A DNA stretch of 64,000 nt from a candidate division FCPU426 bacterium. Its GTDB lineage: Bacteria > Oederibacteriota > Muellerivitia > Muellerivitales > DAHXKG01. Positions 5,124 through 49,332 of this stretch are shown here, in pieces; positions within the stretch are counted from its first letter, which is position 1, and the number at the start of each line of letters is the position of its first letter. Below the pieces are notes generated by a model. That model ran no database searches. It saw only the letters and a list, made by a program, of their open reading frames with translations, and was not told the origin of the DNA. The position numbers were made by a program, and so were the translations under genes. The stretch is taken from NCBI GenBank assembly GCA_027366525.1, contig DAHXKG010000004.1:1-64000 (forward strand), written 5' to 3'.

Positions 5124-6217
5124 TTTCAATTTTTTCCAAATCAACGATTGGATTGGACTTGGGTTCTTCGGCCATCAAAATTATTCAATTAGAACAGCTG
5201 AAAGGACGCTTTAAATTAATTGCTTTAGGCATGGCTGATTTTCCCAAAGATATTTTGGAAATCAATCCTGAACTTCGAAAAAGTTTAATTGTGGAGACGA
5301 TCAAAAAAGTTTTAAAAGAATCCGGCATTAAGGCTCAAAATGTCGTAACGTCGCTCTCAGGGGATGCCGTGATCCCAAGGTATATTAAAACACTTTCAAT
5401 CCCCCAGATGGATCTTCGGAGTGCTATTCTAAAAGAAGTGGATCAGCATATTCCTTTGAGCATGGATCAAGTGGTTTTGGATGTTCATCAGTTAAGCGAC
5501 ACCGTGGATGCCGAGAAAAAAATCGATGTGCTTTTAGTTGCAGCCAAAAACGATGCCATTCAACAACGTTTGGAAATTTTAAAACAAGCGGGATTAACCC
5601 CTGTTATTATTGATGTGGATGCGTTTGCATTACAAAATGCATATGAAATCAACCAAGCGACTGGGAATAAAGATGAAACACTGGTTTTGCTGAATATCGG
5701 AGCGGCGCTAACCAATATTAATATCATTGAAGCAGGAACAACTCGCTTTACACGGGATATTACGATTGCCGGCAATGATTTTACTCGAGAGATTGTCAAG
5801 GAGTTCAATTTAAAATTTTCAGAAGCCGAAGAACTGAAAAAAGCGAGCGGATCTATTTTGATGGAAGATGAAGAATTTAGTTTGAGCTCTGTCAAAAATC
5901 AAGATGATCGGGTCTTGCGCATTTCCGATGCGATGATTCCGGTTTTAAATAAATTATTAGCAGAAGTTCGACGTTCATTTGATTATTATGAAACGCAATC
6001 CAGAAAGAAATCCATCGATCGGATTTTTCTTTCAGGCGGAACAGCAAGTTTAAAAAATTTGAGTCGATATCTGGCCAATAAAATAGGGATTCCCGTGGAA
6101 ACTGCGGGCTTGTTTAAAAATATTGAAATTTCTTCTAAAATTGATTCGGAACAATTGGATGGAAAAGAGCTGCAATTAGGGGTCGCTTTGGGATTAGCTT
6201 TAAGGCGTTTGGAATAA
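5120..6217 (+). CDS. pilM: Type IV pilus assembly protein PilM (actin-like ATPase)
   Basis: Cytoplasmic actin-fold protein that binds the PilN tail and links the motor to the alignment complex. IGLDLGSSAIKIIQLE near the N-terminus is the phosphate-1 loop; LVLLNIGAALTNINII forms the second; FLSGGTASLKNL is the adenosine motif. I chose GTG at 5120, which overlaps the pilD stop as GTGA and follows AAAGGA by nine bases, over a TTG at 5099; this gives about 365 residues. It is the first gene of pilMNOPQ, whose members abut or overlap, so coordinated translation is likely. Confidence 0.94.
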   Translation: MISIFSKSTIGLDLGSSAIKIIQLEQLKGRFKLIALGMADFPKDILEINPELRKSLIVETIKKVLKESGIKAQNVVTSLSGDAVIPRYIKTLSIPQMDLRSAILKEVDQHIPLSMDQVVLDVHQLSDTVDAEKKIDVLLVAAKNDAIQQRLEILKQAGLTPVIIDVDAFALQNAYEINQATGNKDETLVLLNIGAALTNINIIEAGTTRFTRDITIAGNDFTREIVKEFNLKFSEAEELKKASGSILMEDEEFSLSSVKNQDDRVLRISDAMIPVLNKLLAEVRRSFDYYETQSRKKSIDRIFLSGGTASLKNLSRYLANKIGIPVETAGLFKNIEISSKIDSEQLDGKELQLGVALGLALRRLE

Positions 6218-43843: not shown

Positions 43844-44533
43844 ATGACGATTCAATTTTTCCATGTTAGTCGGCAGGCTTCCAATGGAGTGAAAATTTTA
43901 GATAATATCTGTCTATCCATTAAAACCGGTAGTTGGATTGAAATCAAAGGCGTCAATCAAGTTGGCAAGACCAGTTTGCTTAAAATGATTGCGTGCGAGG
44001 ATACCGCAGATTCAGGAACGCTGAAAATGGACCAACAACTTTTTGAAAATATGGATCGAAAGCAACTTCGAATTTGGAAATCCCAAATTGGTTTGGTTTT
44101 CCAAGATATTGGTTTTTTCCCGGATAAAAGTGTGCTGGATAATTTAATGACGCCCTTTCTTATTCAAAAGAATGGGGGAGGAATTTTCCGAGAACAGTTG
44201 AATCGTGCTTTGGAACGGGTGCATCTTCGAGAAAAAATGTATATGCCCATGAGGGACTTGTCATTTAGCGAGCAACGCTTGGTGGTTTTTTTGAGAGCGC
44301 TGTTTCCCAAACGTCAAATTTTATTGCTGGATGATCCTTTTCAAGGGATCGAAATGCATACCATTGAAGTACTTCAAAGTATTTTGGCTGAACAGCATCA
44401 CCAGGGGGTCACCATTGTGGGAACGGTACTCGATGATACGGTTTTTCAAAATCCTCACGTAACTTCTGAAACAATCGAATGGTTTGAATTAACATCGTCC
44501 CAAATCCAAATGATTGGAGGTAACCCAACATGA
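43844..44533 (+). CDS. ftsE: FtsE-like ABC ATPase with degenerate catalytic motifs
   Basis: About 229 residues, placed before ftsX and an envC-like gene. In E. coli, FtsEX relays ATP hydrolysis to cell-wall amidase activators. Walker A GVNQVGKTS and the Q-loop VFQD are present. But the signature LSGGEQQR reads LSFSEQRLV, Walker B LLADEP reads LLLDDP (catalytic Glu to Asp), the D-loop is QGIE, and the H-loop His (ATHD) is Leu in GTVLDD. Four hydrolysis motifs are altered together, so the protein may bind but not turn over ATP. ATG 43844 follows GGGAGAGG. It overlaps ftsX by four bases. Confidence 0.85.
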   Translation: MTIQFFHVSRQASNGVKILDNICLSIKTGSWIEIKGVNQVGKTSLLKMIACEDTADSGTLKMDQQLFENMDRKQLRIWKSQIGLVFQDIGFFPDKSVLDNLMTPFLIQKNGGGIFREQLNRALERVHLREKMYMPMRDLSFSEQRLVVFLRALFPKRQILLLDDPFQGIEMHTIEVLQSILAEQHHQGVTIVGTVLDDTVFQNPHVTSETIEWFELTSSQIQMIGGNPT

Positions 44534-45432
44534 GTATATTGGGTTCGGTTCAATTTATTTTTAAAGAAGGATTTTATCGATTCCGACATTCTCGAGGATT
44601 ATCGTGGGCCGTGATTGGGATCATTACGGCATCCTTGATCCAGATGGCCATTGTTTTGGGATTAATGCTTTTTTTAAATCAAGTCATTCAATCGGCACAA
44701 GCTAAATTCAACTGGACGATTTTTTTGAAGCCGCATACCACGACGCAGGACATGACCCAGTTAAAAAAAATTTTGGAATACTATCCGTTTATTGCTCGTG
44801 TCAAGTTGTTAACGAAACAACAGGCTTTAAAAGATATGGAACGCGATCAGGCAATTCAACAAATGGTTCAAGCCCTGGGACAGAATCCATTATTGAATTC
44901 TTTTAGTGTTCTTTTTACCCCTGCAGCGACTTCACAAAACTTAAAGCATTTATCCGGCCAACTTCAGACTATCGCCTGTATTTCAACAATTAATTATGGC
45001 CCCAAGCAATTCAATCTTTTTTCAAAAATCATTCGATGGGTTTATGGAATTGGGATTGTTTTAGAAATCATTGTTTTTTTTGCCGCTTTAACCGTGATGT
45101 CCAATGCATTTAATTTAGTCTTACAGGTCCGCAAACCGGAGCTTCAACTTTTACACCGATTGGGTGCTCCGGCTTGGATGAAATGGGGGCCTTATTTTTG
45201 GGAAGGCATCATTCAAGGTATTCTCGGATCTGCGTTGGTCTTAATTTTGCTCAATTTGATTCAAAATGGAGTTTTTTGGTTTTCCTCTTCTGTGATTTTC
45301 CCGACGAATTTCGATATTCCAACATTTCCTTGGCGACTTTTAGATATGATGATTGTGGGTATTGGATGTCTTTTGGGCGTTTTGGGAATTGTTTTGGCTC
45401 TGCGGCAAAAATGGATTAAGGAATTTTTGTGA
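44530..45432 (+). CDS. ftsX: FtsX-like cell division permease protein
   Basis: 300 residues with the FtsX topology: an N-terminal membrane helix (about 28-52), a periplasmic domain (about 55-175) with NWTIFLKPHTTTQDMTQL and LTKQQALKDM, and three C-terminal helices (about 180-205, 232-255, 275-295) with the LRLGAPxWM-like LLHRLGAPAWMKWGPYFWEG. The periplasmic domain would hold EnvC. ATGA overlap with ftsE and GTGA overlap with the next gene link all three. Confidence 0.92.
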   Translation: MSILGSVQFIFKEGFYRFRHSRGLSWAVIGIITASLIQMAIVLGLMLFLNQVIQSAQAKFNWTIFLKPHTTTQDMTQLKKILEYYPFIARVKLLTKQQALKDMERDQAIQQMVQALGQNPLLNSFSVLFTPAATSQNLKHLSGQLQTIACISTINYGPKQFNLFSKIIRWVYGIGIVLEIIVFFAALTVMSNAFNLVLQVRKPELQLLHRLGAPAWMKWGPYFWEGIIQGILGSALVLILLNLIQNGVFWFSSSVIFPTNFDIPTFPWRLLDMMIVGIGCLLGVLGIVLALRQKWIKEFL

Positions 45433-46628
45433 TCATTCGTCTTTGCATTATTTTCCAAATTTTAGGAATGCTGTATTTGAAAAATTCAAATGCAGGTGGG
45501 ATCTCGACACCGCCTAACCATCAAATCATTGTTCAAAATCAACAGGGGCTTAAACAAATTGAGAATCGGTTAATACGAGAGCGGCGTATTCAAAAACAAT
45601 CTAAAATTGTTGAGCAAAATGTTTTATACCGCCTAAGAATGATGGATCATCGAATGGTTCAAACCTTTAGGGACGAGCAGCAAAATCAAAGCAAGCTTTA
45701 TTGGCTTCGGATGAATGAAAAAAAATTAGAACATCAAGTTCAACAATGTCAGACAAAACTGGAACAGGATCGGCGGATTCTCAAGGATCGCATTCGTGGA
45801 CTTCAGAAACTCTCAGATGATAATAACCTGATTGTCGCTTTATTAAGTGCTAAAAATTTTAGTGATTTAGCGCGAACCTTTAAATTTAACATGCTTTTAG
45901 CTCAAAGTGATGCCAAAGTGATTCGGCAAACCTTAACGCAACGCACGCGTCTTCAGGAATCATTAGCCGATTTAACAAGTGAAAAATCTCAGGAAATTCA
46001 GGTCGTTCAAGCACTTTCATGGCAAAAAAAACAGTTTGAGGATCAACGAAATCAAAAGATAAGTTTATTGGAAGAAATTCGACGTCGACAGGATATCCGA
46101 CGACAACTGATAGTGGATTTAAGCAAAGATGCTGAAAATTTAAAGAAAAAAATCGATTATTTTTTAAATCAATCACCCCGAAACGTGCCCTGGCTGAATC
46201 AATCGCTTAAAAAACAGTTTCAGGCTGGACTTCTGGGTCAAAAAGGTCGGCTGCCTTGGCCCACCATTGGAAAAATAATTTCTCCATTTGGGATCTATGA
46301 AAATCATGAATTTAATGCTATTGTGAAAAATGATGGTATTCAAATTGCAGCGCCGTGGGGAACTCCTTTTCGTGCTATTGCGGCCGGGAAAGTACTGTAT
46401 GCCAATTGGTTCAAAGGATATGGTGAGTTAGTCATTATCGACCATGGCCAAGGTTACTATTCGATTTATGGTCAAGCCGCAGGCTTGTCAGTTTCTAAAG
46501 GAATGTGGGTTCAACAAGGGCAGGTTTTGGGTGTCGTAGGAAATTCCGGATCCTTGGTAGGCAATAGCCTTTATTTTGAAATTAGAAAAGATGGTATACC
46601 ATTGGATCCCCTTCATTGGTTGAAGTGA
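45429..46628 (+). CDS. EnvC-like LytM-domain activator (catalytic residues absent)
   Basis: 399 residues. A signal-like start (about 1-22) is followed by a long coiled coil (about 35-270). The C-terminal LytM domain (about 290-398) has NDGIQIAAPWGTPFRAIA, YGELVIIDHGQGYYSIYG, and GNSLYFEIRKDG. Zinc-binding His residues of active M23 peptidases are missing (LYFEIR in place of HLHFEIR, and ND where HxGxD should be). That is the EnvC state, which activates amidases rather than cleaving. GTG 45429 overlaps ftsX. Amidase genes (AmiA/B) are not visible here. Confidence 0.88.
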   Translation: MIIRLCIIFQILGMLYLKNSNAGGISTPPNHQIIVQNQQGLKQIENRLIRERRIQKQSKIVEQNVLYRLRMMDHRMVQTFRDEQQNQSKLYWLRMNEKKLEHQVQQCQTKLEQDRRILKDRIRGLQKLSDDNNLIVALLSAKNFSDLARTFKFNMLLAQSDAKVIRQTLTQRTRLQESLADLTSEKSQEIQVVQALSWQKKQFEDQRNQKISLLEEIRRRQDIRRQLIVDLSKDAENLKKKIDYFLNQSPRNVPWLNQSLKKQFQAGLLGQKGRLPWPTIGKIISPFGIYENHEFNAIVKNDGIQIAAPWGTPFRAIAAGKVLYANWFKGYGELVIIDHGQGYYSIYGQAAGLSVSKGMWVQQGQVLGVVGNSGSLVGNSLYFEIRKDGIPLDPLHWLK

Positions 46629-46666
46629 TGTTGTGAAATTTGATTTACATTTTTAAAGGAGCAAAT

Positions 46667-48166
46667 ATGGATCGTCGTCCTTCGTATTTATTTATGGCGG
46701 TATTGTTGATTGCTTTATCATTACTAAGTTTTACAGCGGGGGCTGCTGTTCAGGCTTCAAGTCATTTTGAATCCAATGAAAAAGTCTACCAATATTTAAG
46801 GCCTTTTATTGAAGCCTTGACTATCATCAAACAAAATTATGTGAATGTAAAGAAAACCAAAACCCGGCGCTTAATTTATGGAGCCATCGCCGGCATGGTT
46901 TCGACCCTCGATCGATTTAGCCAGTTTATGACGCCGCAGGAATATCAAGCCATGCAAACAGAGACCTCGGGAAAATTTGGGGGATTGGGAATTGAAATTT
47001 CATTAAAAAACAATCGATTGACTGTGATTGCACCGATTTCGGGAACTCCTGCAGCTAAGGCGGGCATTCAAGCCGGGGATGTTATTGCTAAAATTGGAAA
47101 TCAATTTACCGATCACATGAGTATTGATCAGGCAGTTAAACTTTTAAGAGGCAAAGTGGGAACTAAAATTACAATTGAAGTTGAACGGCATGGAATTCAT
47201 CATTTGATTCCTTTTACCATCACCCGTGCGTATATTAAAATTCAAAGCGTTAAAGCCTATTTACTCCCACATGATATTGGGTATGTCCACATATCGGAAT
47301 TCATTGCACGAACCACACATGATTTTAAGCAGGCATTAAAAAAACTAGAAAAAGGAAGAAAATTAAAGGGATTAATTTTAGATCTCCGAAATGATCCCGG
47401 AGGGCTTTTAACCGAAGCCGTCGGTGTGGGGAATGTGTTTGTGCCGGCAGGCAAAATGATTGTTTCAACACGTGGACGATCCCAAGAGGATGATGAACAG
47501 TTTAAAGCGATTCAAGGATTCAAGTTTGCGGGAGCTCCGGTTGTTTGTTTGGTCAATGGGGGGAGTGCCTCAGGCGCTGAAATTGTTTCAGGCGCACTTA
47601 AAGATTGGAAGTTGGCGACACTGCTGGGAGAAAGAACGTTTGGGAAAGGAACTGTTCAAACCATTCTTCCATTGGATAGCAGCGGGGGAGCCGCTTTACG
47701 ATTGACGATGGCTAAATATTACACCCCATCGGGTGTATGTATTAATCGAATTGGGATTGAACCCAATGTTCCGTTAAAAGAGCCAGATTTGACTGATTCC
47801 ACCATGACGGCATTTCAAAACAATGATGTTGAAAAATTTGCAAGAATGCTGGAAAAAGAAAAACTTCCAGTAACCTTGTCGATGAAAATTTCAAATCGAT
47901 TATTGCAACAACTTTATACATTCTGCATGAAACATGGGAAGGATATGCATCGATCGGATCTTGAAAAAAATTCTGAGTATTTTAAAGAATCCTTATTTTT
48001 GGATCTAGTGGAAAATAAAATGGGTGAAAAAGTTGCGGCTCGAGAAACCGTTTTAATTGATCCTCAAGTCAAGGATGCAGAAAAAATTATTTTGAACCAT
48101 GGCAAAGTTCCAAAATCCATTGTGGCTTTGGAAGTGCGTTCAACGCCATCCCCAGTAACGCCATAG
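46667..48166 (+). CDS. Carboxy-terminal processing protease (S41, CtpA/Prc family)
   Basis: About 499 residues from ATG 46667 (after AAAGGAG). Signal/anchor helix about 8-28, S41 N-terminal domain (DRFSQFMTPQEYQAM), PDZ (about 100-180), and catalytic GGSASGAEIVSGAL (Ser) with GERTFGKGTVQT (Lys). It cleaves periplasmic proteins from their C-termini; in other bacteria this includes murein hydrolases or pilus/adhesin components. It is placed between envC and yibQ-like, as in the E. coli envC-yibQ region with extra insertion. Confidence 0.93.
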   Translation: MDRRPSYLFMAVLLIALSLLSFTAGAAVQASSHFESNEKVYQYLRPFIEALTIIKQNYVNVKKTKTRRLIYGAIAGMVSTLDRFSQFMTPQEYQAMQTETSGKFGGLGIEISLKNNRLTVIAPISGTPAAKAGIQAGDVIAKIGNQFTDHMSIDQAVKLLRGKVGTKITIEVERHGIHHLIPFTITRAYIKIQSVKAYLLPHDIGYVHISEFIARTTHDFKQALKKLEKGRKLKGLILDLRNDPGGLLTEAVGVGNVFVPAGKMIVSTRGRSQEDDEQFKAIQGFKFAGAPVVCLVNGGSASGAEIVSGALKDWKLATLLGERTFGKGTVQTILPLDSSGGAALRLTMAKYYTPSGVCINRIGIEPNVPLKEPDLTDSTMTAFQNNDVEKFARMLEKEKLPVTLSMKISNRLLQQLYTFCMKHGKDMHRSDLEKNSEYFKESLFLDLVENKMGEKVAARETVLIDPQVKDAEKIILNHGKVPKSIVALEVRSTPSPVTP

Positions 48167-48177
48167 GATATGAATTT

Positions 48178-49332
48178 TTGGGTTTGAAAATCCGGTTGTT
48201 GAAGGAACAGGTTTCTTGGAAGTGGTGGATGATTTTGCTTATGGGAATCATCGGTGGAGTCGGGATCTACGCATTACTATTTCCGAAACTTGTTCCTCGA
48301 GTTGTTCCACAACCCTATTTTGCAATTCATCCCACACGCGCATCGATTCAACTATTGAATCGCTTGAATCAGAGGTTGGCCAAAATTCAAATGCTGGATT
48401 TGTTGGTGCGTTCAGTCAAGATTCAAACGCGCAAGTTCCATGAAAAATCTTTTCCACATTATCAGGAAGAATTTCGATTGCCGCGTTCGTGGACAGTAGT
48501 TCGCTTGGTACGTCAATTAAATCAAGTCGCACAGGCCTTGGGGGCACATGCCTCTTCCATTCGCCGGGAAGTTATTTCTGCTCGACGGACGACCCGGTAT
48601 TGGGTATCCTTTGAATATGCGTCGAATATGATTCCCATTCAATTGATTTTTAGAAAAAATCATCAACCCGAGATTTGCTTGATCATTGATGATGCGGGTT
48701 ATCAAGCCGGATCGAACCTAGCCATGATTGAACGGTTTCATGTGCCGGTTACGGTGGCGATTATTCCTGGGACACCGTTTTCAACCTATCTGGCTCAAGT
48801 ATTGCCGTTGCAGGGTATTCAAGTCATTTGTCATATGCCGATGCAGGGTATTGATCCAGTCCCGACTGGGGCCTATGCGTACTATATTCATCGTGGAATG
48901 ACGGCGCACCAAATTCGGTATGAATTGATTCAGGGGATTCAGGCCGTCCCAAACTGTGTCGGCCTTAATAATCATATGGGCAGTGTCATTACTTCCGATG
49001 CCAACGCTATGAGGATCATTTGTCAGGTATTAAAATCACGGCATCTTTTTTATATTGATTCGTTGACTTCGCCTAATTCGGTTGGTAAAAAAATAGCACG
49101 CCAGATGCACGTACTGTGTGCTCGACGCGATGTTTTTTTGGACGATGTTCGAAAACCCGCGTATATTCAACATCAATTTCAATTACTAGTTCAGGAATCC
49201 GAGAGTCAAGGTCGAGCGGTGGGTATTGCTCATTTTCATTGGATCGTATTAAATGAACTTCGGAAGCTCATTCATCAAACAGTAAGAAAATCGAATATTC
49301 AGTTTGTTTATGCATCAGAAATAGTAAAATAA
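48178..49332 (+). CDS. Divergent polysaccharide deacetylase (YibQ-like)
   Basis: 384 residues. An N-terminal membrane helix (about 18-38) anchors it. The C-terminal half has the divergent polysaccharide deacetylase core ICLIIDDAGYQAGSN, VTVAIIPGTPFSTYL, CHMPMQG, GLNNHMGSVITSD, and HFHW. The IDDAG and HMGS motifs replace the metal site of standard NodB enzymes. E. coli yibQ is directly after envC, the same neighbourhood as here. The enzymatic role is unproven. Start TTG at 48178 is chosen by its AGGA; other TTG codons follow within 20 bases. Confidence 0.85.
   Translation: MGLKIRLLKEQVSWKWWMILLMGIIGGVGIYALLFPKLVPRVVPQPYFAIHPTRASIQLLNRLNQRLAKIQMLDLLVRSVKIQTRKFHEKSFPHYQEEFRLPRSWTVVRLVRQLNQVAQALGAHASSIRREVISARRTTRYWVSFEYASNMIPIQLIFRKNHQPEICLIIDDAGYQAGSNLAMIERFHVPVTVAIIPGTPFSTYLAQVLPLQGIQVICHMPMQGIDPVPTGAYAYYIHRGMTAHQIRYELIQGIQAVPNCVGLNNHMGSVITSDANAMRIICQVLKSRHLFYIDSLTSPNSVGKKIARQMHVLCARRDVFLDDVRKPAYIQHQFQLLVQESESQGRAVGIAHFHWIVLNELRKLIHQTVRKSNIQFVYASEIVK

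Follow-up and report, generated by a model that had tools for sequence, protein, structure and literature searches.

A bacterial order with an eroded FtsE ATPase site beside intact ftsX and envC-like genes

An FtsE whose signature, catalytic glutamate, D-loop and H-loop are all altered lies directly before open ftsX and envC-like genes in a candidate division FCPU426 bacterium, and related losses recur in all nine genomes sampled from its order. We put the probability at about one half that this is a lineage-wide FtsE without normal ATP turnover, kept as a structural partner of FtsX and EnvC. FtsE normally spends ATP on activating the enzymes with which dividing cells separate, and the purpose of its ATP hydrolysis is still debated. 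In E. coli, hydrolysis-defective FtsEX blocks septal wall synthesis and rescues cell separation in some conditions. Here FtsE is still maintained by selection and its partner genes are intact, which suggests a switch that runs without the usual motor in this lineage.

The window is the whole stretch of DNA analysed, 64,000 nucleotides on a contig of 233,616 bases (C28) in an assembly of 2.02 Mb that is 97.5% complete. The ftsE, ftsX and envC-like reading frames are all open and point in the same direction. They overlap at ATGA and GTGA, in keeping with the earlier note's description of an intact ftsE frame with overlapping FtsX and EnvC-like genes. The features of the locus are as follows.

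43844..44533, + strand: ftsE, 229 aa, eroded ATPase, preceding ftsX; ATG start 3' of gggagaggc
43949..43975, + strand: Walker A, GVNQVGKTS; Lys and Thr/Ser kept, Gly38 changed to Gln and Ala39 to Val
44102..44104, + strand: Q-loop Gln (Q86), kept in the window FtsE; Pro or Ser in family f2
44258..44275, + strand: signature LSFSEQ (for LSGGEQ); second Gly also lost
44330..44353, + strand: Walker B Asp, catalytic E163 changed to Asp, D-loop PFQGIE; DDPFQGIE against DEPTGNLD
44429..44431, + strand: H-loop position, Leu (CTC) for His (H195), by alignment to E. coli FtsE
44530..45432, + strand: ftsX, 300 aa; ATGA overlap with ftsE (4 bases)
45429..46628, + strand: envC-like amidase activator, coiled coil and LytM domain; GTGA overlap with ftsX (4 bases)

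Motifs were read from an alignment with E. coli FtsE, supplemented by FtsE sequences of the phylum. The four changes first noticed in this gene are all seen against E. coli FtsE: signature LSFSE, Walker B Glu to Asp, a QGIE D-loop and Leu at the H-loop. No histidine lies near the H-loop position in either possible register. The Q-loop had been called intact, and Q86 is indeed retained. Walker A, called intact as well, keeps its lysine but fits only the minimal pattern G-x4-GK[TS], given the changes at Gly38 and Ala39. The damage is also wider than four motifs, since the A-loop Tyr is absent too. A conservation test used 43 near-invariant positions, defined on canonical FtsE from E. coli and 23 sequences of the phylum. 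The window FtsE changes 12 of the 20 that fall in motifs and 12 of the 23 elsewhere. Erosion in this genome is therefore not confined to the ATP site.

The protein fails the canonical ABC ATPase motif test at the signature, catalytic Glu, D-loop and H-loop, with Walker A present in minimal form only. The best match of the reading frame among 157 NCBIfam families is TIGR02673 (FtsE), at 114.3 bits, under the curated cut-off of 264.85. The gene immediately precedes a true ftsX (PF18075 positive) in the same orientation, an arrangement found in 9/9 genomes of the taxonomic order. An AF2 model (pLDDT 81.4) has the nucleotide-binding domain (NBD) fold, and its best PDB matches are the FtsE structures 8ymc and 8hd0 (TM 0.81-0.85). 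By position, fold and neighbours the gene is a true FtsE, orthologous to the ftsX-adjacent copies across the order. Position and fold make the protein an FtsE, and descent most likely does too, although it lacks FtsE's defining catalytic features. That an unrelated ABC ATPase has taken the place of ftsE is disfavoured by the TIGR02673 and structural matches, and by an FtsE tree in which the copies of the order group with the f7 copy (0.993). The deep branches of that tree are long and poorly supported and the f5 copies are split, so the tree alone is insufficient against replacement. A second canonical ftsE elsewhere in the genome, which the earlier note had named as a way its reading could fail, was sought with genome-wide profile searches and is absent, which rules out a hidden copy. 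The closest other ABC proteins are a LolD, encoded between a LolC-like permease and a McsA-like gene, and a MacB/LolD-type protein.

The order was sampled by nine genomes in two families, f1 being this genome alone (G000) and f2 the other eight. Relatives with canonical motifs, another possible objection to the earlier note, were not found: the H-loop His is absent and the D-loop reads PFQ in all nine. The four changes are nevertheless shared unequally. Besides the His loss and PFQ, Asp replaces the catalytic Glu in seven of nine members (6/8 of f2; G002 and G008 keep Glu), whereas LSFSE is private to the window genome. Walker B Asp is kept in 9/9 and Walker A Lys in 8/9. Within f2, Walker A is GESRTGKST or a close variant in 7/8 and lost in G001; the Q-loop position is Pro in six and Ser in two; the signature is LSSGE in 7/8 and LTDGE in G001; and the H-loop position is Gln in 7/8, with Arg in G001. 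None of the nine ftsE copies has a stop or frameshift. Sequencing or assembly error, or chance, is ruled out by recurrence of the pattern in eight other assemblies, and recent decay in a single genome by its order-wide spread.

The FtsE of G001 (L060:6001-6681 / L165) has lost Walker A altogether, including the Lys (SENVLAATA), and is still a full-length reading frame. Its AF2 model has the NBD fold (pLDDT 80.5), and its best PDB match is an FtsE, 6z4w. Of the near-invariant positions it changes 14 of the 20 in motifs but just 6 of the 23 outside them, a sign that in G001 the ATP site has been lost preferentially.

The FtsE adjoining FtsX is canonical in ten further families of the phylum. Erosion is seen in f7 (signature LARGE, H-loop His to Lys, Glu kept) and in f5 (no Glu, His or Gln; in G017 no Walker A Lys either). 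A concatenated ribosomal-operon protein tree (2,998 columns, FastTree) groups f1+f2 with f5+f7 (0.988), and f5 alone or f7 alone still joins f1+f2 when the other is removed (0.947 and 0.987). Because of this grouping, a single origin of erosion in the four families is the simplest reading, with the reservations that f5 and f7 sit on long branches and that the FtsE tree leaves f5 scattered. At two f5 loci (L173, L174) an ABC-like gene with almost all ATP motifs erased precedes an FtsX-like gene, and there is no EnvC match near either.

A second, well-supported clade, f4+f12, is separate from the eroded one. In its loci (L175-L181), uvrA and usually a Crp/Fnr-type regulator stand before ftsX in ftsE's place (G021 is without the regulator). 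FtsX is kept, as is EnvC where the contig reaches far enough. Relocation of ftsE is ruled against by a search of five genomes with a phylum FtsE profile, which found nothing above the level of LolD/MacB: the best ABC proteins are of that type and score at most 208 bits, whereas full-length canonical FtsE proteins from the phylum reach 279-398.

We next consider selection. Values of dN/dS were estimated by the Nei-Gojobori method and are rough, three of the four f2 pairs having dS > 1. They are 0.096-0.123 for the eroded f2 FtsE and similar, 0.10-0.17, for FtsX. Altered f2 positions show synonymous codons (Gln195, CAA/CAG; Ser140, TCA/TCC/TCG/TCT). At dN/dS of 0.10-0.12, the altered f2 FtsE is therefore under purifying selection. 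This provides the selection check proposed in the earlier note for the sister family, but not for the branch of the window genome itself, which has a single member. An f5 pair gives dN/dS 0.91 at dS 0.92. The FtsE/FtsX distance ratio has a median of 0.68 between canonical families, FtsE being the slower. Where FtsE is eroded it is 0.89 (f2), 1.18 (window genome against f2), 1.39 (G001) and 2.04 (f5 pair). From these raised ratios it follows that the altered FtsE is still selected but under less constraint, most clearly in the window genome, G001 and f5.

The window FtsX has an extracellular domain above cut-off (PF18075, 41.4 bits; cut-off 23.5) followed by a C-terminal FtsX permease domain (PF02687, 23.4 bits; cut-off 25.5). 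TIGR00439 matches residues 11-293 of 300 (126 bits, 1.5e-36), under its cut-off of 255. It is the sole FtsX_ECD protein above cut-off in the genome, and 44 of 45 phylum genomes carry the domain in one copy each. The window EnvC matches NF008644 at 97.6 bits (7e-28; below the 270 cut-off) and PF01551 at 9e-28, with the PF24568 coiled coil just under cut-off. Alongside this coiled coil, its LytM domain lacks the zinc-binding catalytic residues: it reads SLYFEIR for HxH and has no His/Asp pair, so that the M23 catalytic residues are absent, as in E. coli EnvC. The protein aligns with E. coli EnvC (4bh5/8c0j), and the inactive-site pattern is found across the phylum. The genome also encodes an Amidase_3 protein and ftsA.

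FtsE is a homodimer, as established for solved FtsEX. The defects would therefore be present in both composite sites, leaving neither intact. Since each site would be without Glu, His and the full signature, normal turnover is unlikely in this lineage. Instead, FtsE would serve as a structural cytoplasmic partner of FtsX, keeping FtsX and EnvC assembled and in place at the divisome, with no need of repeated ATP hydrolysis for holding or releasing EnvC. Members with GK[ST] may go on binding nucleotide, which might act as a structural cofactor or gate the complex slowly; the G001 protein very probably binds none. Loss of hydrolysis, a scaffold role and recruitment to the divisome are what we infer from several observations. 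The losses are order-wide (His in 9/9, E-to-D in 7/9, Pro/Ser at the f2 Q-loop), and G001 has dropped Walker A while its predicted NBD fold persists. The f2 copies evolve at dN/dS 0.10-0.12 beside conserved FtsX and EnvC neighbours, and the window genome has just one FtsX and lacks a canonical FtsE. Finally, ftsA and an Amidase_3 protein are present, and f4+f12 keep FtsX/EnvC without a recognisable FtsE. The nucleotide-gated scaffold suggested in the earlier note is thus plausible for most members, but it is not the rule of the lineage, given G001 without Walker A, f5 with nearly all motifs lost, and f4+f12 without FtsE. The trend across the lineage is of ATP becoming dispensable rather than of a new ATP gate. 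A broader proposal, which we hold tentatively and as less than even, is that in f1, f2, f5 and f7 the FtsEX-EnvC relay stopped being an ATP-driven switch and became a complex independent of ATP, in which FtsE is a pseudo-ATPase scaffold, and that f4 and f12 dropped FtsE with FtsX and EnvC still working.

A purely structural FtsE has points against it: Glu persists in G002 and G008, seven members have LSSGE, and E-to-D sites of other ABC proteins hydrolyse slowly but are active (PMC7756269). Together with a Walker A Lys in eight of nine members, a Walker B Asp in all and strongly purifying selection in f2, these would suit a slow, altered ATPase, in which Asp and Gln or other substitutes sustain a turnover that is low but suffices for a division signal given a single time per cell cycle. 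We consider that unlikely. The H-loop His is gone from all nine members, the Q-loop Gln from all f2, Walker A from G001 and the second signature Gly from the window protein; several of these losses fall in the same site of a homodimer; and the neighbouring f5 family and the absence of FtsE from f4+f12 point to dispensability.

Another reading is that FtsE is on its way out. Here the ATP cycle would have become unneeded in an ancestor, constraint would have fallen, and the window and G001 copies would be decaying slowly towards loss of the f4/f12 kind. Relaxed constraint relative to FtsX fits decay too: FtsE outpaces FtsX only where it is eroded (1.18 in G000, 1.39 in G001 and 2.04 in f5, against 0.68 for canonical families), the f5 pair has a dN/dS of 0.91 (dS 0.92), and FtsE is absent from f4 and f12. 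Nine copies free of stops and frameshifts, the low f2 dN/dS, and a PFQ D-loop that is invariant in both families of the order, like many fold positions, make this account unlikely too, slightly more so than slow turnover. It is highly improbable that another canonical ATPase, LolD- or MacB-like, drives FtsX, with the local FtsE reduced to an inactive leftover or a regulator. FtsX does belong to type VII, as LolCDE/MacB do, and the window genome has canonical LolD/MacB-type ATPases (L033, L034), but these adjoin their own permeases and fall short of true FtsE scores, and in 9/9 genomes ftsE is still part of the ftsX operon.

Evidence from E. coli on the need for ATP use by FtsE cuts both ways. 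The substitutions K41A and E163Q, which block nucleotide binding or hydrolysis, both abolish amidase activation (PMC12505981), so loss of ATP use should be costly unless FtsX or EnvC compensate; we identified no compensating change. Conversely, hydrolysis-defective D162N FtsEX still suppresses chaining when it is unable to block division (PMC7343993), and overproduced FtsE promotes septal PG synthesis independently of its ATPase (PMC10269673). For P. aeruginosa FtsEX, ATP binding alone is cited as sufficient to activate EnvC/AmiB (as cited in PMC10694151).

The window system shares with the FtsEX-EnvC systems of E. coli, P. aeruginosa and V. cholerae (type VII ABC) the ftsE-ftsX order with an EnvC-type partner, FtsX_ECD, a degenerate LytM domain, the NBD fold, and ftsA and Amidase_3 in the genome. 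It differs in an FtsE without the catalytic Glu (Asp instead), H-loop His, canonical signature and D-loop. The degenerate sites of the ABC exporters TAP, the ABCC family and TM287/288 likewise combine Walker B E-to-D with H-loop and signature changes. Those proteins, however, are heterodimers or have two unlike halves, and in heterodimeric exporters a degenerate site is paired with a canonical one (PMC7756269), whereas an FtsE homodimer keeps none; they are also exporters, whereas the window gene encodes a division signalling NBD. M. tuberculosis FtsEX-RipC departs from the E. coli scheme of ATP use as well, but with a high basal ATPase (PMC10694151), so that the change in the window lineage runs the opposite way. 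The earlier note knew of no described FtsE lineage with such losses, and we found none in the open-access literature. The lineage amounts to a natural mutant series, with stepwise erosion of FtsE (H-loop and Glu, then Walker A in one member) and, in a clade apart, full loss. Such a series reveals what the relay can give up jointly, and its proteins are at hand for asking whether a motor, a nucleotide switch or an anchor alone is what FtsEX requires.

The surroundings of the operon add minor observations. The genes 5' of ftsE read as alaS, yqgF and mltG. On the 3' side of envC, window 46640-49332 encodes a CtpB-like S41 protease and a YibQ-like divergent polysaccharide deacetylase, an arrangement that we take to recall the envC-yibQ neighbourhood of E. 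coli. Farther away, window 5147-6097 gives a weak FtsA-family match (57.8 bits) and may encode another actin-fold protein of the PilM or MreB type.
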